Below, piece after piece: positions 1,986 to 58,132 of a stretch of 64,000 nucleotides of DNA (within the stretch, counting starts at the first letter, position 1; the number at the start of each line of letters is the position of its first letter). Under the pieces are notes generated by a model. It was not told the DNA's origin. It was given only the letters and a program-made list of their open reading frames with translations, and did no database searches. Origin of the DNA: Phycisphaerae bacterium (GTDB lineage: Bacteria > Planctomycetota > Phycisphaerae > UBA1845); the NCBI GenBank assembly GCA_029260165.1, contig JAJDDT010000044.1, positions 62,001 through 126,000 on the forward strand. Reading direction: 5' to 3'. The position numbers were made by a program, and so were the translations under genes.

Positions 1986-2379
1986 TGTTTCTGTTGGCGT
2001 CGGCGTGGCGTCGATGGGCATGGCTGGTTGACGGGTGGAAGACGTTGGCAGCTTTGTCAGTGGTGGATTGTTTTGTTTGCAATGTAACACCGTTCGGATG
2101 GTTGAAGTGCAGGGATGCACCGCTGTTCGGAGGCCTGTGGAGCTTTGGTGATGGAGTGCCTGTGGCTGGTGAGGCGCAGAGTGATTACTGCTGACGGACC
2201 TGATGAGAATCGGGCCGGCATCCAGGCGAGAGGGACGTCGCTCGTGTCCGAATCGCCTGAAACATGCGTGCGGTGATTGCTATCCGGCGTGCAGGTGAAT
2301 TGCCATGGCTGGCGCGAGGGATTTTGCGTTGCCACGGATGGTTGACGTACCCTCGTTGGTGTTTTTTGGGTCGGTGTTG
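1986..2379. other. Long spacer between mraZ and rsmH
   Basis: This spacer is unusually long for a dcw cluster, where mraZ and rsmH are normally nearly contiguous. A 69-codon frame starting GTG at 1985 has a GAGGG site upstream, but its Trp/Cys-rich product resembles no known family and I do not call it. No hairpin-plus-T-run terminator is seen. Confidence 0.4.
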
Positions 2380-3300
2380 ATGGATGATGTGCGGCATACG
2401 CCCGTCCTGGTTGCGCCGGTTCTGGAGTTGCTCGACCCGCGACCTGGCGAGATCGTGGTTGATGCGACACTGGGCCTGGCGGGACATGCGTTGCGGTTCA
2501 TCTCTGCGATTGGATCGGAAGGGCAGTTTGTCGGTGTTGACGTTGACGCATTGAATCTCGAGGCGGCTGGTGAGCGGTTGTCCGATGCCCCGTGCAAGGT
2601 GGTCGTGGTTCGGGACAACTTTGCGCGGATTGACGCGGTATTGGACGGAATCGGTTTGCGTGGTGTGGATGTTTTGTTTGCGGACCTTGGCGTGAGTTCG
2701 ACGCAGTTGGACGTGGCGATGCGAGGCTTTTCATTTCAGCAGGATGGTCCTTTGGATATGCGGATGGACGATCGTTCGCCGACGACGGCGGCTGATCTGG
2801 TGAACAGGCTTCGGGAGGCGGAGTTGGCGGACCTTTTTTTCAACAATGCTCAGGAGCGTAAGAGTCGTCGGATTGCTCGTGAGATTTGCCGTGTTCGAAA
2901 AGAGGATCGGATTATGACGACGGGTCGTTTGAGTGAGGTGGTTTGTCGGGCATTGCGGGTGCATCCGAATTCGAGGCGTAGCAGGATTCACCCTGCGACG
3001 CGGGTTTTTCAGGCGTTGCGGATGGCGGTGAATGAGGAATTGTCGGTGTTGGATGTTTTTCTCGAGAAGGCACCGCGTGTGCTGAATGCGGGGGGGCGTG
3101 TTGGGGTGATTTCGTTTCACTCGCTGGAGGATGGGAAGGTGAAATGGGATTTTCGCAAACGGCAGCGTGCAGGCGTTTACGAGATTGTGACGAAGCGCCC
3201 GACGCAGGCGGATGAAGAGGAACGACGGTGCAATCCGCGATCGCGCAGTGCCAAGCTGCGTGTCGCACGTCGCACCGAGGTGGATATGGACGATTGTTAG
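2380..3300 (+). CDS. rsmH: 16S rRNA m4C1402 methyltransferase RsmH
   Basis: RsmH (MraW) is the SAM-dependent N4-methyltransferase acting on C1402 of 16S rRNA in the ribosomal P site. I place the start at the ATG of MDDVRHTPVL, giving 306 aa, the normal family length; an upstream in-frame start at 2305 would add 25 residues not typical of the family. Visible family blocks are the N-terminal RHTPVL, the SAM-binding VDATLGLAGHA, DLGVSSTQLD, the FSFQQDGPLDMRMD block and VISFHSLEDGKVK near the C terminus. The SAM loop reads LGLAGH where most homologues have GxGGH. It sits in the conserved mraZ-rsmH order. Confidence 0.95.
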   Translation: MDDVRHTPVLVAPVLELLDPRPGEIVVDATLGLAGHALRFISAIGSEGQFVGVDVDALNLEAAGERLSDAPCKVVVVRDNFARIDAVLDGIGLRGVDVLFADLGVSSTQLDVAMRGFSFQQDGPLDMRMDDRSPTTAADLVNRLREAELADLFFNNAQERKSRRIAREICRVRKEDRIMTTGRLSEVVCRALRVHPNSRRSRIHPATRVFQALRMAVNEELSVLDVFLEKAPRVLNAGGRVGVISFHSLEDGKVKWDFRKRQRAGVYEIVTKRPTQADEEERRCNPRSRSAKLRVARRTEVDMDDC

Positions 3301-3428: not shown

Positions 3429-4601
3429 ATGGCCGTTGAGACGAAGGTCGGGTTGCTGGTCGGTTTGGCGTTTATCGTTTGCTTCGCGGTGATCCTGTCG
3501 AATCGAGGGAGTGGTGACGTGGCTGGTGGGCAGATGGCTTATCATCTTCTTTCCCGCCACGAGTCCGGTGATTCGGATCAGCGGCAACCTGCGGCGGGGT
3601 CGCTTCAGGGTCGTTCGCCGACGAAAACGTCTCCGCGCCGCCATTCTTCACGCGCATCGTCGCGGGCGGCGCCGGGTCCCAATCGGGTTGCGGGGGGGGC
3701 AACGCTGCCTCGACAACGCCCGGCTACCCGGCGGAATGGTCCGGTGACGACACAGAAGCGGACATCGCCGCCGCAGAATCAGCGCGCAGAGTTGCCGCGT
3801 GAAACGACCATGTCTGCGACGCAGGAGCCTTCGCGAGGTCAACCCGTGCAGCGTTCGGGGAACAAGGCGTCGCAGCGGTCGTCACCCAGGCAGCAGAAAC
3901 CCCATACCAACGATTCAGGCGATTCAAAGAACTTCGAAACCATCTTTGGTGACCACGGGTCGGATGCGCCGAAGGAAAAGCCCGCGTTGGCGCAGCGCAA
4001 ATCGAAACAAGGTTCGGCTGGGACGTCGAGTGGATTGGGTACGAAGCCTGTCGCGTTGTCGAAGTCGCAAACCAGGATGCGTGATGGAAGGTCGCGGCGG
4101 AAGGGGGCGGTGCGACAATCGTCGAATGGGGCTACCTATGAAGTACAGAAGAACGACACGTTGTGGAAGATTGCGCGGAAGGCCTATGGTGATTCGAAGC
4201 CCGCGATTGTGGAGGCGATTTTTGAAGCGAACAGGGACACGATGAAATCGAAGGATCATTTGCGTGTTGGTCGCACGCTGAGATTGCCGGATATTGGGGG
4301 GGTGCGCCCGAACGTGACTCGCCCGAAGACGCGTGTGGCGGACCGGACAACCGAGACGAAACGAGGCGACAGGAATTCGCGGAAATCCAATCGTGGTCAT
4401 CGGTATTATCAGATTCAGAAGGGTGATCGTTACACGACGATTGCCGCGAATCTGTTGGGTGACGGCAAGCGTTGGAAAGAGATATTTGAGTTGAACAAGG
4501 ATATTTTTCCCGAGGCTGGCAGCATTCAGTATGGTGTTCGGATTCGCGTTCCCTTAGCAGATACGATCCCGGCAGATACGACTCCGGTTGGCACAAGATG
4601 A
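3429..4601 (+). CDS. Membrane-anchored protein with two LysM domains
   Basis: A 390-aa protein not part of the standard dcw set. From the ATG at 3429 it has a short cytoplasmic start, one TM helix (about residues 7-24), and a roughly 200-residue Ser/Arg/Gln/Pro-rich disordered linker. Two LysM domains follow: one from about residue 237 (YEVQKNDTLWKIARKAYGD) and one from about 325 (YYQIQKGDRYTTIAANLLGD). LysM binds GlcNAc-containing glycans, so I infer a periplasmic peptidoglycan-binding protein tied to septal synthesis by its place between rsmH and ftsL. No catalytic domain is visible. An in-frame ATG at 3354 would add 25 basic residues before the TM; 3429, behind GGAAGAG, makes the better N terminus. 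It overlaps ftsL by 4 bp. Confidence 0.8.
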   Translation: MAVETKVGLLVGLAFIVCFAVILSNRGSGDVAGGQMAYHLLSRHESGDSDQRQPAAGSLQGRSPTKTSPRRHSSRASSRAAPGPNRVAGGATLPRQRPATRRNGPVTTQKRTSPPQNQRAELPRETTMSATQEPSRGQPVQRSGNKASQRSSPRQQKPHTNDSGDSKNFETIFGDHGSDAPKEKPALAQRKSKQGSAGTSSGLGTKPVALSKSQTRMRDGRSRRKGAVRQSSNGATYEVQKNDTLWKIARKAYGDSKPAIVEAIFEANRDTMKSKDHLRVGRTLRLPDIGGVRPNVTRPKTRVADRTTETKRGDRNSRKSNRGHRYYQIQKGDRYTTIAANLLGDGKRWKEIFELNKDIFPEAGSIQYGVRIRVPLADTIPADTTPVGTR

Positions 4602-4882
4602 CGGTGGCGCGTGGGTTGTTTTTGTTGGTGTTGCTTGGTGGTTTGTCGGTGGGTGCGATCGCGCTTCGCACGGACCAGATTCGGACGGCTGCCCATATCG
4701 AGGAGATGCGTCGTGACGTGATACACCTTCGGCGTGAGTCGTGGTCGCTGCAGATGGAGATTGCGCGCCTGCGAACGCCGGACCGGGTGACGGAACGTGT
4801 TGGCCGGTGGGCGCTGAACATTGGTGTGCCTGTTCCGCCGAGTGAGAGGCCTTCTCGCGGGCAGTGGGCGTTGGTTGATTGA
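4598..4882 (+). CDS. ftsL: FtsL-like cell division protein
   Basis: A 94-aa bitopic membrane protein in the ftsL slot just before ftsI. One TM helix spans about residues 4-22. A periplasmic stretch (about 30-62) follows with leucine/isoleucine spacing and charged residues typical of the short FtsL/DivIC coiled coil. It ends with a Pro-rich segment. FtsL pairs with FtsB and FtsQ to activate FtsW-FtsI. Sequence similarity within this family is very weak, so the call rests on size, topology and position. The ATG overlaps the stop of the LysM gene (ATGA), indicating translational coupling. Confidence 0.7.
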   Translation: MTVARGLFLLVLLGGLSVGAIALRTDQIRTAAHIEEMRRDVIHLRRESWSLQMEIARLRTPDRVTERVGRWALNIGVPVPPSERPSRGQWALVD

Positions 4883-5005: not shown

Positions 5006-6769
5006 ATGGACGTCGATCAGAGTCGCAGGTTGCGAATTTTTGGTGGGGCGATTCTGGTCGCGATGTGTTTTGCGTTCGTCGGGCTGATTGGCAGACTGGT
5101 CTACCTTCACACTTTTGATTCACGCAAACTCACACGTTACGTTCGTTCGCAGCAGATAGGTTATACGATCCTTCCCGGTCGTCGCGGTTGTGTTGTTGAT
5201 CGTCATGGGCGGATGTTGGCTGGTACGCAGAACAAGCCTTCCGTGATGGCGGACCCGTCGATGATGGGTGACATCGGGACGGTGGCGGAGAGGCTTGCTC
5301 CGGTTGTGGGGCTTGATGAAGGGGTATTGCTTGGGGTTTTTCGGAAGAATCAGCATCGACGGTTTTGTCGTGTCAGGCGATTCGTGGAACCGGTTGAGGC
5401 GGATGCGGTTCGTGCGTTGAGCATTGCGGGTGTTTTCGTTCGGGATGAACCGCAGCGTATCTATCCATCGGGCCAGCCCGTTGGTCCTGTTGTTGGTTTT
5501 GTGGGTTTCGAAGGGCGTGGCCTGGAGGGGATTGAGAAGCAGTTTGATGGGCATCTTGGTGCGAAGGATGGCAAGTCGGCGGCGGTGTACGACGGTCGTC
5601 GTAGTCGCAGGCCTATTTGGCTTCGCGATGATCTGAGTTGTCCGCCGAAAGATGGTGGGCATGTGATGCTGACGATCGATCTGGTTGTTCAATCGATTGT
5701 GTATGAGGAAGTTCGCGATGCGGCGGAGTCGTTTGGTGCGCGGTACGCTGTTGGGATCGTGATGGATCCGAACAATGGTGACGTTCTTGCGATGGCGCAG
5801 TTTCCGAGCTACGAGTCATCTTTTTTTGCGGAGGTGAACCCTGGGGTGCGTCGAAATCTTGCGATCACCGATGCGATTGAACCCGGGAGTACGTTCAAGC
5901 CATTTGTTGCGTCAGGTGCGTTGGCGGGTGGGGTGATTGATCCTGGTGAGATGATTGATTGCAGGAACGGGGTTCACTATTTTGGTGGTCAGCGTATTCG
6001 TGATACGAAACCCAAGGGTGCGTTGGATTTTGTTGGGATATTGACCTACAGCAGCAACATCGGGATGGGGTTTGTCGGGGAGCGTATGGGTAATGAGATG
6101 ATCCACGACATTGTCCGTTCGTTTGGATTTGGTCGGCGGACGGGGGTGGGGTTTGCGGGTGAATCGCCTGGTCTTGTTCGGTCTTTGGACACATGGACAA
6201 GTTATTCGACGCATTCGGTGCCGATCGGGCAGGAGTTGGCGGTGACGCCGTTGCAGCTTGTGACGGGGTTTGCGGCGATTGCCAATGGTGGGACGCTGCT
6301 CCGACCTCGGTTGGTTCGTGGACGGATGGATTCGTCGGGGGATGCGGTTGAGATGTGGACTGACCCGGAGCCTGTGCGTCGCGTGTTGCCCGAGGCGGTT
6401 GCGCGGTTTATGCGGGAGCGGGCGTTGGTGCAGGTGGTGAAGGAGGGGGGCGGTCGGCGATCGGCGTTGGATGATTGGCAGGTTTTCGGTAAGACGGGGA
6501 CGGCGGAGGTGGCGTATGACGATCGGGCGGGGTATGAGCCTGATGCGTATATGGGGGCGTATTTGGGTGGTGCACCGGCGAGCGACCCTGCTCTGGTGGC
6601 GGTTGTGATGGTCTACAGGCCTGTGAAGAAGCTGGGGTATTATGGATCGAAGGTGGCTGCCCCTGCGGTGGGTCAGATTTTGAAGCGGTCGTTGAGCTAT
6701 CTTCAGATTCCGGCGGACGTGCCGGCGGACGTTCCTGCGGGTGACGAGTCTGAATGGCCTGCTGCGTGA
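5006..6769 (+). CDS. ftsI: Septal peptidoglycan transpeptidase FtsI (PBP3-like)
   Basis: A class B penicillin-binding protein that cross-links septal peptidoglycan as partner of FtsW. 587 aa from the ATG at 5006, preceded by GGAGAG; the frame is open to 4964, but the N terminus MDVDQSRRLR followed by a single TM helix (about residues 12-33) is typical. The N-terminal dimerisation domain has the usual LPGRRGCVVDRHGRML block. The transpeptidase domain shows the three catalytic motifs: STFK (Ser295), SSN (Ser349) and KTG (Lys496). There is no PASTA domain. Located after ftsL and before murE as in standard dcw order. The C terminus has a short DVPADVPA repeat. Confidence 0.95.
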   Translation: MDVDQSRRLRIFGGAILVAMCFAFVGLIGRLVYLHTFDSRKLTRYVRSQQIGYTILPGRRGCVVDRHGRMLAGTQNKPSVMADPSMMGDIGTVAERLAPVVGLDEGVLLGVFRKNQHRRFCRVRRFVEPVEADAVRALSIAGVFVRDEPQRIYPSGQPVGPVVGFVGFEGRGLEGIEKQFDGHLGAKDGKSAAVYDGRRSRRPIWLRDDLSCPPKDGGHVMLTIDLVVQSIVYEEVRDAAESFGARYAVGIVMDPNNGDVLAMAQFPSYESSFFAEVNPGVRRNLAITDAIEPGSTFKPFVASGALAGGVIDPGEMIDCRNGVHYFGGQRIRDTKPKGALDFVGILTYSSNIGMGFVGERMGNEMIHDIVRSFGFGRRTGVGFAGESPGLVRSLDTWTSYSTHSVPIGQELAVTPLQLVTGFAAIANGGTLLRPRLVRGRMDSSGDAVEMWTDPEPVRRVLPEAVARFMRERALVQVVKEGGGRRSALDDWQVFGKTGTAEVAYDDRAGYEPDAYMGAYLGGAPASDPALVAVVMVYRPVKKLGYYGSKVAAPAVGQILKRSLSYLQIPADVPADVPAGDESEWPAA

Positions 6770-10865: not shown

Positions 10866-11062
10866 CAAACTCATGCTTCGGGACAGAAGGTCTGGCGCAC
10901 CGTCAGCAAATGGGTGGCCCACCTCTTTAGAGGTGGGGGACTCGATTCCTGGTTGGGATTCGACTCCCCCACGGCTAAAGCCATGGGCCACCCGGTCAAT
11001 TGAGGATTGACGAGGTATCGGGTGACAATGGACACGAGACGGTCAGGGATGACAAACTCATG
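10863..11062. other. Insertion flanked by 13-bp direct repeats at the mraY-ftsW junction
   Basis: TGACAAACTCATG occurs at 10863-10875 and again at 11050-11062. The first copy holds the mraY stop codon; the second holds the ftsW ATG. The 174 bp between them carries a full 82-bp double-hairpin element. Removing one repeat and the insert would place the mraY TGA 7 bp from the ftsW ATG, a normal dcw spacing. This looks like an insertion with target-site duplication. I see no clear terminal inverted repeats at the exact ends of the 174 bp. Confidence 0.7.
10912..10993. repeat. 82-bp double-hairpin (REP/BIME-like) element, copy A
   Basis: Two inverted half-sites: GGGTGGCCCACCTCTTTAGA onward on the left, and a right half ending AAAGCCATGGGCCACCC. 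The left hairpin pairs CCCACCTCT with AGAGGTGGG; the right pairs CCCACGGCT with AGCCATGGG (one C-A mismatch). The outer arms GGGTGGCCCA/TGGGCCACCC and the inner GACTCGA/TCGACTC also pair. Length is identical (82 bp) in copies at 18757 and 57978. The shape resembles REP pairs mobilised by Y1 (RAYT) transposases; no such transposase is in the window. Confidence 0.85.
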
Positions 11063-12286
11063 ATACAATCCAGAAAAACTCCCCCCGGAACAACCCCCCA
11101 CGCCACCGTGCTTGTGGTGATCGCGGCTGCTCTGATGACGGTCGGCGTCGTGATGCGTGCGTCGACGGCGGCGGAGCTGGATCAGTCTCTGACGGGGCAT
11201 TTTGCGTGGAACGGTCCGGTGATGAGGCAGCTTTGCTTTGCGATCGCAGGGGTTTGCGTGATGCTCATTTTTTCGCGTATTGACCCCGTCCTGTTTCGCT
11301 GGCGTGGGATTTTCCTGTTTCAGCCGGCGTTTTGGATGTTGCTCGTCGCGATTGGTTTGCTGGTGTGCGTCTGGGTTCCGGGGATCGGGCACGAGAGTCA
11401 CGGTCGGCATCGCTGGATTCATCTGGGACCGGTGGGTTTTCAGCCATCGGAACTTGCCAAATTGACATTGGTCGTCGGGTTGGCTGCGTTTCTGGCTCGG
11501 ACACGGAAGCGGCATGCGAACGAGCCACCGGATATGCTTGTGCCAGCCATTGCGATCGGTTTGCTATGCGTCCTCGTCGGCATCGAGGATTTCGGAACGG
11601 CTGCATTGCTCGCGCTCGTTGGTGCGGGCATGTTGGTGGCGGGTGGTTGTTCATTCAAGGCGATGTTCGCGTGGGTGATTCCCGCTGTCGGTGCGTTTGT
11701 TTATTTATTGCTCGAGCATCCCTATCGGGTGAAACGTCTGTTGACGTTCCTGAACATCTGGAAAGACCCGAAGGGCGACGGATATCACGCGGTGCAGTCC
11801 CTGGCAGCCATTGCGTCGGGTGGATGGGCGGGGCGTGGTCTTGGTGCGGGTATTTCGCGATTCGACTATCTTCCGGAGAGCGCCGCGGATTTCGTGTTTG
11901 CGGTTATCTGCGAGGAGGCTGGCTTTTTCGGCGCTACCGTGGTCATCGGACTCTACATTGCATTTGTCTATTTCGGATTGCGGGTTGTGCGGTCAGCCGT
12001 CAGGAACAATGACCTGTTCCGGGGTCTGATTGCATTCGGGATGACGACGGTCATCGGCTTTCAGGCGTTGATCAACATCGCCGTGGTCACGGTCGTCGCC
12101 CCGACCAAGGGCATCGCGTTGCCGTTGGTTTCCGCGGGCGGAACCGGGCTGCTGAGTTTCAGCGTTGCGGTCGGGCTGATCGCAGCCGTGGATCGTTCCA
12201 CGCGTCGGGCACAGTCCCGAACGGTGGTGGAAGAGGTGGAGGAAGATGAACGTGTGCCTGTTGTCAACGTCGAACCGGTGACATGA
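11060..12286 (+). CDS. ftsW: Lipid II polymerase FtsW (SEDS family)
   Basis: A SEDS-family glycosyltransferase that polymerises septal glycan with FtsI. 408 aa from the ATG at 11060 (MIQSRKTPPG); the frame stays open to 11000, but that upstream part is insertion sequence. About ten TM helices are visible. SEDS blocks include HRWIHLGPVGFQPSELAKL, DYLPESAADFVFAVICEEAGF and the C-terminal GIALPLVSAGGTGLLS. An acidic tail (VVEEVEEDER) follows the last helix. The stop overlaps the murG start by 4 bp. From here on the coding strand is visibly less G-rich than in the genes before it. Confidence 0.94.
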   Translation: MIQSRKTPPGTTPHATVLVVIAAALMTVGVVMRASTAAELDQSLTGHFAWNGPVMRQLCFAIAGVCVMLIFSRIDPVLFRWRGIFLFQPAFWMLLVAIGLLVCVWVPGIGHESHGRHRWIHLGPVGFQPSELAKLTLVVGLAAFLARTRKRHANEPPDMLVPAIAIGLLCVLVGIEDFGTAALLALVGAGMLVAGGCSFKAMFAWVIPAVGAFVYLLLEHPYRVKRLLTFLNIWKDPKGDGYHAVQSLAAIASGGWAGRGLGAGISRFDYLPESAADFVFAVICEEAGFFGATVVIGLYIAFVYFGLRVVRSAVRNNDLFRGLIAFGMTTVIGFQALINIAVVTVVAPTKGIALPLVSAGGTGLLSFSVAVGLIAAVDRSTRRAQSRTVVEEVEEDERVPVVNVEPVT

Positions 12287-15897: not shown

Positions 15898-16860
15898 ATG
15901 ACGGCTGTCGCGACCAACTTCGCAACAAACATCGACACCAAACCGCGGACGATCATCGTTTTGGCGGGTGGCCCCGGCTGCGAACGCGAGGTCAGCCTCG
16001 AAAGCGGGAAAATGGTGGCCGACGCGCTGGAACGCCTTGGGCATCAAGTGACGATCCGCGACATCAACCCCGGTGATCATTCCGCGCTCGACGAACCCAC
16101 CGACGTTTTTTTTGTTGCTCTGCATGGAACGTTCGGTGAAGACGGACAGGTCCAGCGATTGCTCGAACAACGCAATCTCGTTTATACCGGTTCGGGTCCC
16201 GACGCTTCCGCCCTTGCGATGGACAAGGTGGCAACGAAAAATCGTTGGGTTGAACAAAACATCGCGACCCCTGCGTTTGACGTCGTTTTCAAACAGGGGT
16301 CAGCCTGCAAAATCAAGGCACCCGCCGTCGTCAAGCCAATCAATTCCGGAAGCAGCGTTGACGTGACAATCGCACGGGACGCCGCAACGCTTTCAAACGC
16401 CATGGATGACGTCGCCGACCGATACGGCTCCGCCCTCGTCGAACAATTCGTCGACGGGCTGGAACTGACCGTCAGTATTCTTGACGACCAACCGCTGCAG
16501 CCGATTCAAATTCGCACGAAACGCGGGTTCTACGACTACCAGGCCAAGTACATCGACGACGATACCGAATACCTGCTCGATATTCCGCTTTCCGATGACA
16601 TCCTGAAAGAAATCCAATTGCTCAGCCAACGAGCAGCCAGGATCGTCGGTTGTCGTGATTTCTGTCGTGTCGACTGGATGGTCGACAAACGATCGAAAAC
16701 CCCATACGCCATCGAGATCAACACTATTCCCGGGCTGACGAGTCATTCACTGTTGCCCAAGGCTGCCAACGCGATCGGTATCGGTTTTGAGCAACTTTGT
16801 CAGCGAATCATCGACCTTGCCCTGAAACGCGCTGCCAACGCAAGGGTGGCTGTATCATGA
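15898..16860 (+). CDS. ddl: D-alanine-D-alanine ligase
   Basis: An ATP-grasp ligase making D-Ala-D-Ala, the substrate of MurF. 320 aa. Seen: VLAGGPGCEREVSLESG at the N terminus (homologues usually have GGxSxEREVSL; here the Ser is Gly-Cys), HGTFGEDGQVQRLLE, YTGSGPDASALAMDK, KPINSGSSVDV, and the metal-binding YAIEINTIPGLTSHSLLP. The residue facing D-Ala in the GTFGEDG loop gives no sign of D-lactate specificity, but I cannot settle that by eye. The gene starts 16 bp after murB and overlaps ftsQ by 4 bp. Confidence 0.93.
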   Translation: MTAVATNFATNIDTKPRTIIVLAGGPGCEREVSLESGKMVADALERLGHQVTIRDINPGDHSALDEPTDVFFVALHGTFGEDGQVQRLLEQRNLVYTGSGPDASALAMDKVATKNRWVEQNIATPAFDVVFKQGSACKIKAPAVVKPINSGSSVDVTIARDAATLSNAMDDVADRYGSALVEQFVDGLELTVSILDDQPLQPIQIRTKRGFYDYQAKYIDDDTEYLLDIPLSDDILKEIQLLSQRAARIVGCRDFCRVDWMVDKRSKTPYAIEINTIPGLTSHSLLPKAANAIGIGFEQLCQRIIDLALKRAANARVAVS

Positions 16861-17726
16861 AACTGTTCAGCCCCAAAAAGAGGAGAGGTCGGCGCAAACG
16901 CAGGAAAATCGATCGCGAGTTGCTGCGCGGACGCATCAAGGTCGCTGCCAAATTCATCGTTGTGATTGGGGTGGTGGCTGGTGCGGTTTTCGGTGTCAGC
17001 GTGCTCGATACGCAGGTCAGACTGCATCCGTCCAATCAAATTGCGCCTGCCGTCGTTCTGCTCGATGTCCCCGAGGCGTTTGAATCCCGCATTCGAAACC
17101 TCGTCGATCGCGTGTCCGATCGACCATGGCTGGACGATTCGCTTTGTAGAGACATCGCAACGGAGCTTGACGAATCACCGTGGGTCAGGAGTGTGCATTT
17201 CGTCAGAAGGAATTCGGACGCCACGCTCGAAATCTCCGCCGACTATCGCGATCCTGTCGCCCTCGTTCAGATTGACGGGAATTTCTGCCTCATCGCTGAC
17301 GACGGAATGCGCCTGCCCGGTGATTACCAATACCACCCCGCGTATGTGGTGATTCAGGGGGCAGCCTCACCACCTCCCGCTCCGGGGCAATTCTGGCCTG
17401 GAGACGATATTGTCGTGGCGCTGGACATGATCCGCAGGCTGAAAGACGAACCGTTTTACGACCAGATTACAGGCGTCATTATCAGTAACTTCAACGGTAG
17501 GGAGTCCCGCCACGATCCGCACATCGAGTTGGCGGCTGCACCCTCGGGGTCGCGAATCCTGTGGGGTTCGCCACCGGGACAGGAAATCGAGGAACCAACT
17601 TTTGCACAAAAAGTGGCCATTCTCGCGGAAAATGATCGGATTTGGGGCAGAATCGACGCGAAACGCATTCAAATCGATGTTTCCACCTACCCCGACCGTT
17701 TTGCCACCACCGATACGATACAATGA
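16857..17726 (+). CDS. ftsQ: FtsQ-like cell division protein
   Basis: A 289-aa bitopic protein in the ftsQ position at the end of the dcw run. A very basic cytoplasmic start (KKRRGRRKRRKID) precedes one TM helix (about residues 38-58). A POTRA-type segment follows with LDESPWVRSVHFVRRNSDATLEIS, the usual FtsQ/DivIB look, and a beta domain of about 130 residues. The start overlaps the ddl stop (ATGA). No ftsA or ftsZ follows, which is rare in free-living bacteria but known for planctomycetes. Primary sequence conservation is low; position and topology support the call. Confidence 0.8.
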   Translation: MKLFSPKKRRGRRKRRKIDRELLRGRIKVAAKFIVVIGVVAGAVFGVSVLDTQVRLHPSNQIAPAVVLLDVPEAFESRIRNLVDRVSDRPWLDDSLCRDIATELDESPWVRSVHFVRRNSDATLEISADYRDPVALVQIDGNFCLIADDGMRLPGDYQYHPAYVVIQGAASPPPAPGQFWPGDDIVVALDMIRRLKDEPFYDQITGVIISNFNGRESRHDPHIELAAAPSGSRILWGSPPGQEIEEPTFAQKVAILAENDRIWGRIDAKRIQIDVSTYPDRFATTDTIQ

Positions 17727-17846
17727 TAGTCGGAGTTATGGGGTGTTCATGTCGCCAAAACAGCCTACCATTGATGTTAGGCCGGTGGGGTTTTTCGGGA
17801 AATATTCCGCGAACCGTCGCGAATACCGTCCCGAGGAGATGACTTC

Positions 17847-18698
17847 ATGACCGATTTTTCTCAATTTTTTCAGCAGATCGGAAACGCCGTCGATCAACTC
17901 GTCGGTAAGGACACGACGGTCTCGATCGTGACGATCGCAGCCATCTCCGCGATGGGCACGGGTTTGATCGTCGCAGTCCTCGGTGCCAGGCTTTGGCGAT
18001 TCACGCTCACCGCTGCCTTCATTCTCATCGGAGCCGGGGTGGGTGCGCAGGTGGCATCGTCGTTCAACTGGATGCCCCTCGCCGGGATGGCCATCGGTGC
18101 CGCAGGCATCGGGATGATCGCCTTCAAGCTATACCGTATCTGGGTGGGCATTGCGGCTGCTGCGTTCTTCGCGGTCGCCGCCGGCTCTGCTGTCGGGTAC
18201 CACGACATGGTTCCGCAGTTGAGGCAATTCGGCCCGCCACCCGCGGTGTCGCCGAATCTGACGGCTGGATCGGCGAACGTGGCTGACAACGACGACGAGC
18301 GAATGGCGATGGCCAAACGCTGGTGGTCTCAGCAAGGCCCCGCGCTCGACAACTGGGCACAGGGTTTTTGGGCACAAGCCACGTCACAGAATCAGAATGT
18401 CAAGCGAAACTTTACGATCAGCGCCGCCGCCGCGGGGATATTCGGACTCATCCTCGGTATTTTCTCCGTTCGATTCACGTCCGTTGTGATCACCACCGTC
18501 ACGGGGACCGTTCTGCTTGTGGGGGGGGCGAGCGCGCTGGTCAAAGCTTGGAAACCGGAGATGTTCGATAACGCCTTCCAGCATCCCAACGTTATCGGTA
18601 CCGCGCTCGGTGTTTTTCTGTTGGCTTCCTTCGTTCTTCAAATGCTCCTGACACGGTCCGATAAGCCGGCGAAGTCCGCCCCGGAAGCGTCAGGTTAG
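17847..18698 (+). CDS. Multi-TM membrane protein (DUF4203-like)
   Basis: A 283-aa membrane protein of unknown function occupying the place where ftsA/ftsZ would be expected. It has about six or seven hydrophobic helices rich in Gly/Ala (ILIGAGVGAQVASS, GMAIGAAGIGMIAF, IAAAAFFAVAAGSAVGY), a soluble loop at about 130-180, then helices again. The small-residue helices resemble the TM7S3/TM198 (DUF4203) family, which I suggest only tentatively. ATG 17847 has GAGGAG 8 nt upstream. The TAG stop is the first three bases of a family-2 repeat element. A shorter protein of the same style follows at 18958. Confidence 0.7.
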   Translation: MTDFSQFFQQIGNAVDQLVGKDTTVSIVTIAAISAMGTGLIVAVLGARLWRFTLTAAFILIGAGVGAQVASSFNWMPLAGMAIGAAGIGMIAFKLYRIWVGIAAAAFFAVAAGSAVGYHDMVPQLRQFGPPPAVSPNLTAGSANVADNDDERMAMAKRWWSQQGPALDNWAQGFWAQATSQNQNVKRNFTISAAAAGIFGLILGIFSVRFTSVVITTVTGTVLLVGGASALVKAWKPEMFDNAFQHPNVIGTALGVFLLASFVLQMLLTRSDKPAKSAPEASG

Positions 18699-18742
18699 CG
18701 CCTTCAATTCAGGTAGCGTCACCCCCTGGTGACGGAAAAACC
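18696..18742. repeat. Degenerate left end of the family-2 element
   Basis: TAGCGCCTTCAATTCAG followed by GTAGCGTCACC matches the left end of the 102-104-bp elements at 29229 and 44847 with small deletions. The inner hairpin is GTCACC-CCCT-GGTGAC. Its first TAG is the stop codon of the preceding gene. Confidence 0.65.
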
Positions 18743-18756
18743 AGATGCCCGCCTCT

Positions 18757-18838
18757 GGGTGGCCCACCTCTTTAGAGGTGGGGGACTCGATTTGAGTTCC
18801 GGATTCGACACCCCCACGGCTAAAGCCATGGGCCACCC
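18757..18838. repeat. 82-bp double-hairpin element, copy B
   Basis: Same 82-bp length and orientation as copy A. Both hairpins are identical in the stems; differences lie mainly in the central spacer, plus one change in the inner GACTC arm (GACACC for GACTCC). It sits between the two membrane-protein genes, just after the family-2 fragment. Confidence 0.85.
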
Positions 18839-18957
18839 AACCATCGAACAACGAGTAACGAAGCACTAGTCAAAGACCAACCCCTCGATACGCGATAAGA
18901 AGAGAATGTCCGCAGTTTCTGCGAGACTGCGTCGTCGCCGACACGGGGTAAGAACCA

Positions 18958-19560
18958 ATGCGCTACGTTGTTCTCGATTGGGTTCGTTTCATAGAAAACG
19001 CCGGCAGCTTCTTCGGGCTGATGTTCGTCGCCTTTGGCGCGGTGTTTATGCTCAGTGGATGGCGCCTCGCCAGAATGGCTATGGTCGCGACCTACGCGTT
19101 TATCGGCATCGCCGCGAGTATTGTCTTTGCACCGGGTTTCGCAGGGCCGACGGTTTCCGCCATTGTGGGCGGGGGCATGCTTGCGAGTCTGGGTTACGTC
19201 ATGAAGCAGCACGCAGGACCGGTATTGGCTGGTCTCATCGGTGCGCTTCTTGTCTGGACGATTCTAGGCTCCTCCACTGTTCCCGAACCGACGATCTACA
19301 TCCTGCTTGTTATCGTATTTGTTGTCATTATGGCGACTGCGTTGACCAACCGTGTCGCAACGTCGATCTACCTGACCTCGTTTGTCGGGGGCATGTTCAT
19401 TGCGTCAGGTTTCATCAGCATGATCCTGGGCAGCGCAGCGATGGCCCCACATTTCCGCGCGCTCACCAGATACTCGGTCTTTTATCCGATGCTGATTATC
19501 GTCCCGACCGTTTGCGGTGTCATGCTGCAACTCGGTGACGCCAAAAGCCGGGGCAAATAG
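18958..19560 (+). CDS. Multi-TM membrane protein (DUF4203-like)
   Basis: A 200-aa integral membrane protein of unknown function with about seven helices, e.g. FGLMFVAFGAVFMLSGW, ALLVWTILG, and IYILLVIVFVVIMATAL. Gly-rich small-residue helices and a similar length of hydrophobic core suggest it is a shorter relative of the 17847 gene product; I infer a local duplication or a two-component membrane complex. ATG 18958 is preceded by GGGGTAAGAACCA. The next gene is on the opposite strand and converges with a 5-bp gap. Confidence 0.65.
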   Translation: MRYVVLDWVRFIENAGSFFGLMFVAFGAVFMLSGWRLARMAMVATYAFIGIAASIVFAPGFAGPTVSAIVGGGMLASLGYVMKQHAGPVLAGLIGALLVWTILGSSTVPEPTIYILLVIVFVVIMATALTNRVATSIYLTSFVGGMFIASGFISMILGSAAMAPHFRALTRYSVFYPMLIIVPTVCGVMLQLGDAKSRGK

Positions 19561-57895: not shown

Positions 57896-57977
57896 GCGTC
57901 AGCCCCGTTGGTTAGGGATCATGTGGGCGTTCGTTTTCCACCCGCCGTGGTGTTTCGTTACTCGTCGATTGACGGTT

Positions 57978-58059
57978 GGGTGGCCCATGGCTTTAGCCGT
58001 GGGGGAGTCGATTTCGAACCGGCAATCGAGTCCCCCACCTCTAAAGAGGTGGGCCACCC
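57978..58059. repeat. 82-bp double-hairpin element, copy C (inverted)
   Basis: Same 82-bp design in the opposite orientation to copies A and B: the GGCTTTAGCC hairpin half comes first and the CTCTAAAGAG half second. The right edge GGGCCACCCATAAAAG runs into a tandem repeat array. Confidence 0.85.
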
Positions 58060-58132
58060 ATAAAAGCGGCCACCCATAAAAGCGGCCACCCATAAAAACG
58101 GGCACCCGTCCAAAGGGGGCACCCATAAAAGC
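58052..58132. repeat. 16-bp tandem repeat array
   Basis: Five units of the form GGCCACCCATAAAAGC: 58052-58067, 58068-58083, 58084-58099, a diverged one at 58100-58115, and a 17-bp one at 58116-58132. The first unit is shared with the end of the 82-bp element, so the array seems to have grown from that edge. Confidence 0.8.

Follow-up and report, generated by a model that had tools for sequence, protein, structure and literature searches.

The absence of FtsZ from planctomycetes has already been described (PMC6952346, PMC10632474, PMC12283558), and it is not new here. According to the parts of the published accounts that were available (PMC5147048, PMC12283558, PMC10632474, PMC6952346), most other division genes are retained in Phycisphaerae, whose division resembles binary fission, and in Planctopirus limnophila most genes of the dcw cluster, ftsQ included, are nonessential. 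For the question of how planctomycetes manage division without FtsZ, the locus described here provides a short and concrete list of candidates, two membrane protein genes directly after ftsQ that we call M1 and M2. In the accessible literature, mostly outside subscription journals, on TMEM198/DUF4203, the division of Phycisphaerae, FtsZ in Planctomycetota, and gene order, we found no description of such a pair.

The locus lies in a 64,000-nucleotide stretch of DNA (the window) from a Phycisphaerae genome of 4.43 Mb, which is assembled in 119 contigs with an estimated completeness of 100% and 1.7% contamination. Among named relatives, the nearest is a "Phycisphaerae bacterium" MAG with a 72% identical Ddl, and others include "Phycisphaerales bacterium UBA1845." One record titled Alphaproteobacteria bacterium (L120) carries a Phycisphaerae-type dcw cluster, and its title looks wrong. 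In the window, all genes of the cluster are on the plus strand, in the order mraW, ftsL, ftsI, murE, murF, mraY, ftsW, murG, murC, murB, ddl, and ftsQ, followed by M1 and M2 in the same direction. Pfam matches identify mraW (rsmH; 2305 to 3300; Methyltransf_5, E = 1.6e-90), ftsI (5006 to 6769; Transpeptidase, E = 6.8e-62, and PBP_dimer), ftsW (11108 to 12286; FTSW_RODA_SPOVE, E = 3.8e-88), and ddl (15898 to 16860; Dala_Dala_lig_C, E = 1.2e-43), with the starts of ftsI and ftsW taken from gene calls. The ftsL-like gene (4598 to 4882; 94 aa) is named from its place immediately 5' of ftsI and a weak DivIC match (E = 0.067). We take five further genes to be murE, murF, mraY, murG, and murB from their sequence and order; their homologs occur in the same order in relatives. 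The start of ftsQ (16857 to 17726), the final canonical division gene of the cluster, overlaps the stop of ddl as ATGA. M1 (17847 to 18698; 283 aa) and M2 (18958 to 19560; 200 aa) come next, and the 3' neighbor of M2 is a DUF456 gene on the opposite strand. An earlier note, made from the letters of this DNA, had described a cluster that keeps ftsL, ftsI, ftsW, and ftsQ and ends at ftsQ, after which come two genes for proteins with multiple transmembrane segments. Gene calls and all-helical, polytopic AlphaFold2 models bore out this description, as did Pfam for ftsI and ftsW, place and profile for ftsQ, and place for ftsL.

The name ftsQ rests on place and on a profile (A3) instead of a Pfam match. 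When 28 ftsQ members were scanned against the FtsQ/DivIB and POTRA families of Pfam, five touched FtsQ_DivIB_C weakly, at best with E = 0.01. The profile matched 94 of the 100 genomes sampled from the order and, in planctomycetes that keep ftsA (G214, G117, and G184), picked out the gene directly 5' of ftsA. By profile, the gene at 16857 to 17726 appears to be the counterpart of the one that lies between ddl and ftsA in these relatives. The ftsA of G184 was identified by reading open frames, and the ftsZ of G184 and G117 from an open frame together with a PF00091 match.

Neither ftsA nor ftsZ follows ftsQ in the window, and what the earlier note had seen at the locus extends to the whole genome. 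Specifically, a search with Tubulin/FtsZ (PF00091) that was positive in 13 of 14 control genomes gave no match at E ≤ 10 anywhere in the window's genome. FtsZ was matched in only 1 of the 100 order genomes (G384), where a canonical-looking gene (L167, 1252 to 2337) sits on a 3.8-kb contig of a genome with 8% contamination; it is probably a foreign contaminant. Similarly, no order genome, the window's included, had an FtsA match (TIGR01174) over the cut-off, and the weak matches below it in 99 of the 100 are probably MreB, PilM, and DnaK-like proteins. M1 and M2, as helical membrane proteins in the AlphaFold2 models, are themselves without a tubulin GTPase domain. The suggestion that septal synthesis proceeds without FtsZ, as known for planctomycetes, fits the literature on the phylum.

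Across 294 genomes of the phylum, PF00091 was matched at E ≤ 0.01 in 9, of which 6 were over the cut-off. Three of the 294 (G184, G214, and G117) retain ftsA after ftsQ. In G184 (L141, 4108 to 7466) and G214 (L142, 1819 to 5128), ftsQ, ftsA, and ftsZ are contiguous inside the dcw cluster, and in G117 (L143 and L144) ftsQ and ftsA are together, with ftsZ on another contig; the ftsZ genes of all three genomes are divergent. These genomes qualify the published claim, as worded in the available part of PMC10632474, that all planctomycetes lost ftsZ. They also support the view that M1-M2 stands at the former place of ftsA-ftsZ. Separately, a single FtsZ/TubZ-like protein, about 440 aa long, occurs in one genus of the class (L145, 5738 to 7060; L146, 6210 to 7529; and L106, from G225), encoded away from ftsQ in the stretches examined. 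The protein of L145 scores 49.9 bits against TIGR00065, for which the cut-off is 295, and has a weak match to a TubZ C terminus.

M1 and M2 are Gly/Ala-rich, polytopic proteins, each with seven membrane helices as judged from the AlphaFold2 models, which are confident (pLDDT 85 and pTM 0.69 for M1; pLDDT 89 and pTM 0.78 for M2). Their profiles align over the full length (hhalign probability 98, E = 1.5e-13), which makes them paralogs and gives the earlier remark that they are of the same style a basis in homology. M1 carries an insertion of roughly 60 residues, placed between helices 4 and 5, that is absent from M2. With helix borders set by hand from the models, loop charges over the alignments placed linking loops 1, 3, and 5 and the C terminus inside, so that the N terminus and the insertion of M1 are predicted to be outside, in the periplasm. 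Both genes are under purifying selection: comparison with a genome of the same genus gave a dN of 0.318 and a dS of 1.8 for M1 and a dN of 0.239 and a dS of 1.17 for M2, values that, with dS near saturation, indicate the kind of selection and not a rate. Outside the genus, identity of M1 to the window's copy is 15 to 32%. An internal duplication was dropped as an explanation of either protein, given the hhalign probabilities of 5.1 (M1) and 1.5 (M2) between N and C halves. Foldseek against the PDB returned nothing at E ≤ 0.001 for M1 or M2, and a sequence search of solved structures with the M2 and FtsQ profiles returned nothing useful. The best VIA-align hits, for M1 (Z 7.4 over 70 residues, rmsd 2.8) and for M2 (a sodium-calcium exchanger; Z 7.5 over 83 residues, rmsd 3.5), were set aside as within the background stated for the tool. 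In NCBIfam, M1 had no family and M2 had only a PEP_CTERM match below the cut-off. M1 and M2 are small all-helical membrane domains, neither cytoskeletal nor nucleotide binding.

A relationship to a described family emerged from profile comparisons. The window's proteins do not reach the cut-off of 29.2 bits for the TM7S3/TM198-like domain (PF13886), M1 having no match at E ≤ 1 and M2 scoring 11.6 bits (E = 0.23). At E ≤ 1, the domain was matched by 11 of 32 M1 relatives (best E = 6.7e-5) and 16 of 29 M2 relatives (best E = 1.9e-6). We also compared profiles with an alignment (A4) of nine planctomycete stretches that a PF13886 search had returned above its cut-off; a tenth, L158, was omitted as truncated. 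The M2 profile (A2) matched A4 over its full length at 99.3% (E = 7e-21) and the M1 profile (A1) did so at 97.5% (E = 5.5e-12), against 1.2% for the control, mraY. These comparisons make both M1 and M2 distant relatives of the TM7S3/TM198-like domain.

The linkage of M1 to ftsQ is real and order-wide. Among 100 genomes of the order with at least 80% completeness, an M1 profile built from 32 sequences matched 98, and 94 had both M1 and ftsQ. In 80 of these 94, M1 follows ftsQ directly and in the same direction, with a median gap of 141 bp, so that the conservation on which the earlier note had made its idea depend does hold among these relatives. By family, adjacency was found in 36 of 42 genomes of f1, 3 of 3 of f2, 21 of 21 of f4, 8 of 10 of f5, and 12 of 16 of f8, and in neither of the single genomes of f3 and f6. 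Four of the 14 exceptions have ftsQ at a contig end, where adjacency is undecidable (G030, G033, G052, and G389), and another has the two genes 2.5 kb apart (G401). The others appear truly separated, namely, G029, G039, G046, and G391, which belong to one genus, and G049, G057, G068, G395, and G397. M1 lies outside the dcw cluster in genus g29 and some other members of the order; in g29, ftsQ and M1 are on different contigs, well inside them.

Among 80 relatives, single-sequence queries detected M1 in 69 and M2 in 56, and a query of this kind did not detect M2 in family f8. In 40 stretches fetched from 36 relatives, 41 with the window, gene calls placed M1 after ftsQ in 31, as ftsQ-M1-M2 in 25 and as ftsQ-M1 without M2 in 6. 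One of the other ten (L083) has both genes by tblastn, missed by the gene caller, and nine hold no ftsQ. Of 30 stretches, 16 continue after the block with a gene on the same strand and 14 with one on the opposite strand, and this gene is mostly not shared. In 10 of the 30 it is, judging by its sequence, presumably a sugar-isomerase-like gene, which means that the edge of the block is not perfectly sharp and that synteny may be partly passive. At positions +2 and +3, at most 2 of 30 stretches share a gene. A terminator-like hairpin lies after M2 in 8 of 26 stretches. The window has a hairpin with a T-run between ftsQ and M1, which a separate tool scan of the region did not list; it was set aside as a terminator rule because only 3 of 31 stretches have one there. 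The gap between M1 and M2 is 259 bp in the window versus 75 bp in a genome of the same genus. Inserted between M1 and M2, at 18756 to 18860, is a copy of a dispersed palindromic repeat, about 105 bp long, that has about 40 main copies in the genome (82 to 100% identical over most of their length) and occurs in the window again at about 10911 to 10993 and 57956 to 58060.

Outside the order, the association looks different. The M1 profile matched 31 of 294 phylum genomes, the window's among them. M1 was linked to ftsQ in none of 26 comparable genomes outside the order, that is, 30 minus one in which ftsQ was not found (G196) and three for which its place was not listed (G264, G271, and G284); it was on another contig or, in G353, 0.7 Mb away. 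Furthermore, M1 is unmatched in 255 of the 285 phylum genomes that lack an FtsZ match, which means that M1-M2 is no general solution to the loss of FtsZ. We fetched 11 M1-profile loci from other orders of the class (L133 to L140, L147, L149, and L150). The tandem pair was called in five (L134, L136, L138, L139, and L149), and one or no gene was called in the remaining six, partly owing to a limit of the gene caller. The scanned neighbors at these loci included a divergent chorismate mutase/prephenate dehydratase of the phenylalanine pathway (L136, L139, and L149), EPSP synthase, glycerol-3-phosphate dehydrogenase, a photolyase, and a sodium/calcium exchanger; no division gene was among them.

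In sister orders, a polytopic-looking protein of 203 to 306 aa follows ftsQ in 5 of the 10 stretches sampled from L123 to L132 (L123, 5165 to 6085; L124, 5151 to 5813; L125, 5350 to 5961; L126, 5710 to 6357; and L129, 8553 to 9401). The five proteins are mutually alike, weakly so for L126 and L129; the three that were scanned had no Pfam match, and greA came next in the two stretches scanned. None of the five showed similarity to M1 or M2, and homology was rejected. In both groups the position after ftsQ thus appears to be taken by a membrane protein, with unrelated ones in different orders.

Our preferred reading, in which we place about half of our confidence, is that M1-M2 is a TM198-like envelope membrane module that was recruited into the dcw operon of this order after the loss of ftsA-ftsZ. 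The order's cluster has lost both genes, and the tandem pair fills the slot after ftsQ. M1 and M2 would form a hetero-oligomeric module of the inner membrane, with the N terminus out and the extra segment of M1 in the periplasm, and would be made together with the septal wall enzymes from the dcw operon. The most likely job of such a module would be homeostasis of the envelope or membrane while the wall grows and the cell divides; it would be a recruited accessory and not a force-generating replacement for FtsZ. This reading is supported by the adjacency in 80 of 94 genomes, by the rarity of a hairpin between ftsQ and M1, by a mostly unshared gene after the block, by the paralogy of M1 and M2 and their relation to the TM198-like domain, by the absence of FtsZ and FtsA, and by the loop charges. 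It is weakened by the position of the pair away from ftsQ outside the order, in three loci beside chorismate mutase/prephenate dehydratase, by M1 being out of the cluster in g29 and some other members of the order, by the sugar-isomerase-like gene after the block in 10 of 30 stretches, and by the missing M2 in 6 of 31 stretches and, with a single-sequence query, in family f8. M1-M2 may have a direct role in division.

Some of the same observations suit passive hitchhiking, in which M1-M2 landed after ftsQ in the ancestor of the order and was kept there by slow rearrangement, with a function unrelated to wall or division. The pair is more widespread than the linkage, its neighbors elsewhere are metabolic, and 10 of 30 stretches have the sugar-isomerase-like gene next to the block. 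Nevertheless, we regard this explanation as somewhat unlikely: adjacency is retained in 80 of 94 genomes despite the low identity of M1 outside the genus, and next to nothing is shared at positions +2 and +3 after the block. Alternatively, M1-M2 could be a working part of the divisome that binds FtsQ through the periplasmic segment of M1, recruits or times FtsW-FtsI, and does the linking job of FtsA-FtsZ. The pair occupies exactly the ftsA-ftsZ slot, as judged from the ftsQ-ftsA-ftsZ order of planctomycetes that keep these genes; its place is conserved across families f1, f2, f4, f5, and f8; and the insertion found only in M1 is predicted to share its side of the membrane with the ectodomain of FtsQ. 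We consider such a part unlikely given that other orders show no linkage of the pair to division genes, that most genomes without an FtsZ match are also without M1, and that the genes of g29 lie well inside different contigs. The broader proposal of the earlier note, that these proteins could belong to a substitute machinery, is weakly supported. It is possible, and both checks that the note asked for came out in its favor, with no ftsZ elsewhere in the genome and the linkage kept; as a general claim it meets more evidence against than for, the pair being unlinked in all 26 comparable genomes outside the order, missing from 255 of 285 phylum genomes without an FtsZ match, and not cytoskeletal, and sister orders having an unrelated membrane protein after ftsQ. 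Bolder, and a long shot, is the idea that the order rebuilt an FtsQ-linked start of septation around a TM198-like M1-M2 heteromer, and sister orders did so independently with the other post-ftsQ membrane protein, yielding a cytoskeleton-free, membrane-based divisome. Finally, an artifact, with ftsA-ftsZ in a gap between the 119 contigs or M1 and M2 as frames that are not genes, has virtually no chance of being right and is refuted by a search in which 99 of 100 order genomes gave no ftsZ match, and by conserved M1 and M2 sequences with dN well below dS, in an assembly that is estimated as complete and a contig that is continuous through the locus.

Our study carries a caution that gene position alone can mislead, as sister orders carry the same pair apart from their division genes; M1 and M2 are candidates in the ftsA-ftsZ slot and not a shown replacement. 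The locus resembles FtsZ-less division as described for Phycisphaerae (PMC6952346, PMC10632474, PMC12283558) in having no FtsZ or FtsA while keeping ftsI, ftsW, and ftsQ, and it differs in that the available parts of these accounts do not mention genes 3' of ftsQ or a membrane pair. Both proteins share a full-length profile match with the TM7S3/TM198-like domain (PF13886), from which they are set apart by scores below the Pfam cut-off, by their arrangement as tandem paralogs, by the insertion in M1, and by their tie to ftsQ. Compared with the ftsQ-ftsA-ftsZ end of the dcw cluster, M1-M2 takes the same position after ddl-ftsQ on the same strand, whereas in place of an actin-like and a tubulin-like protein the window encodes two membrane proteins.
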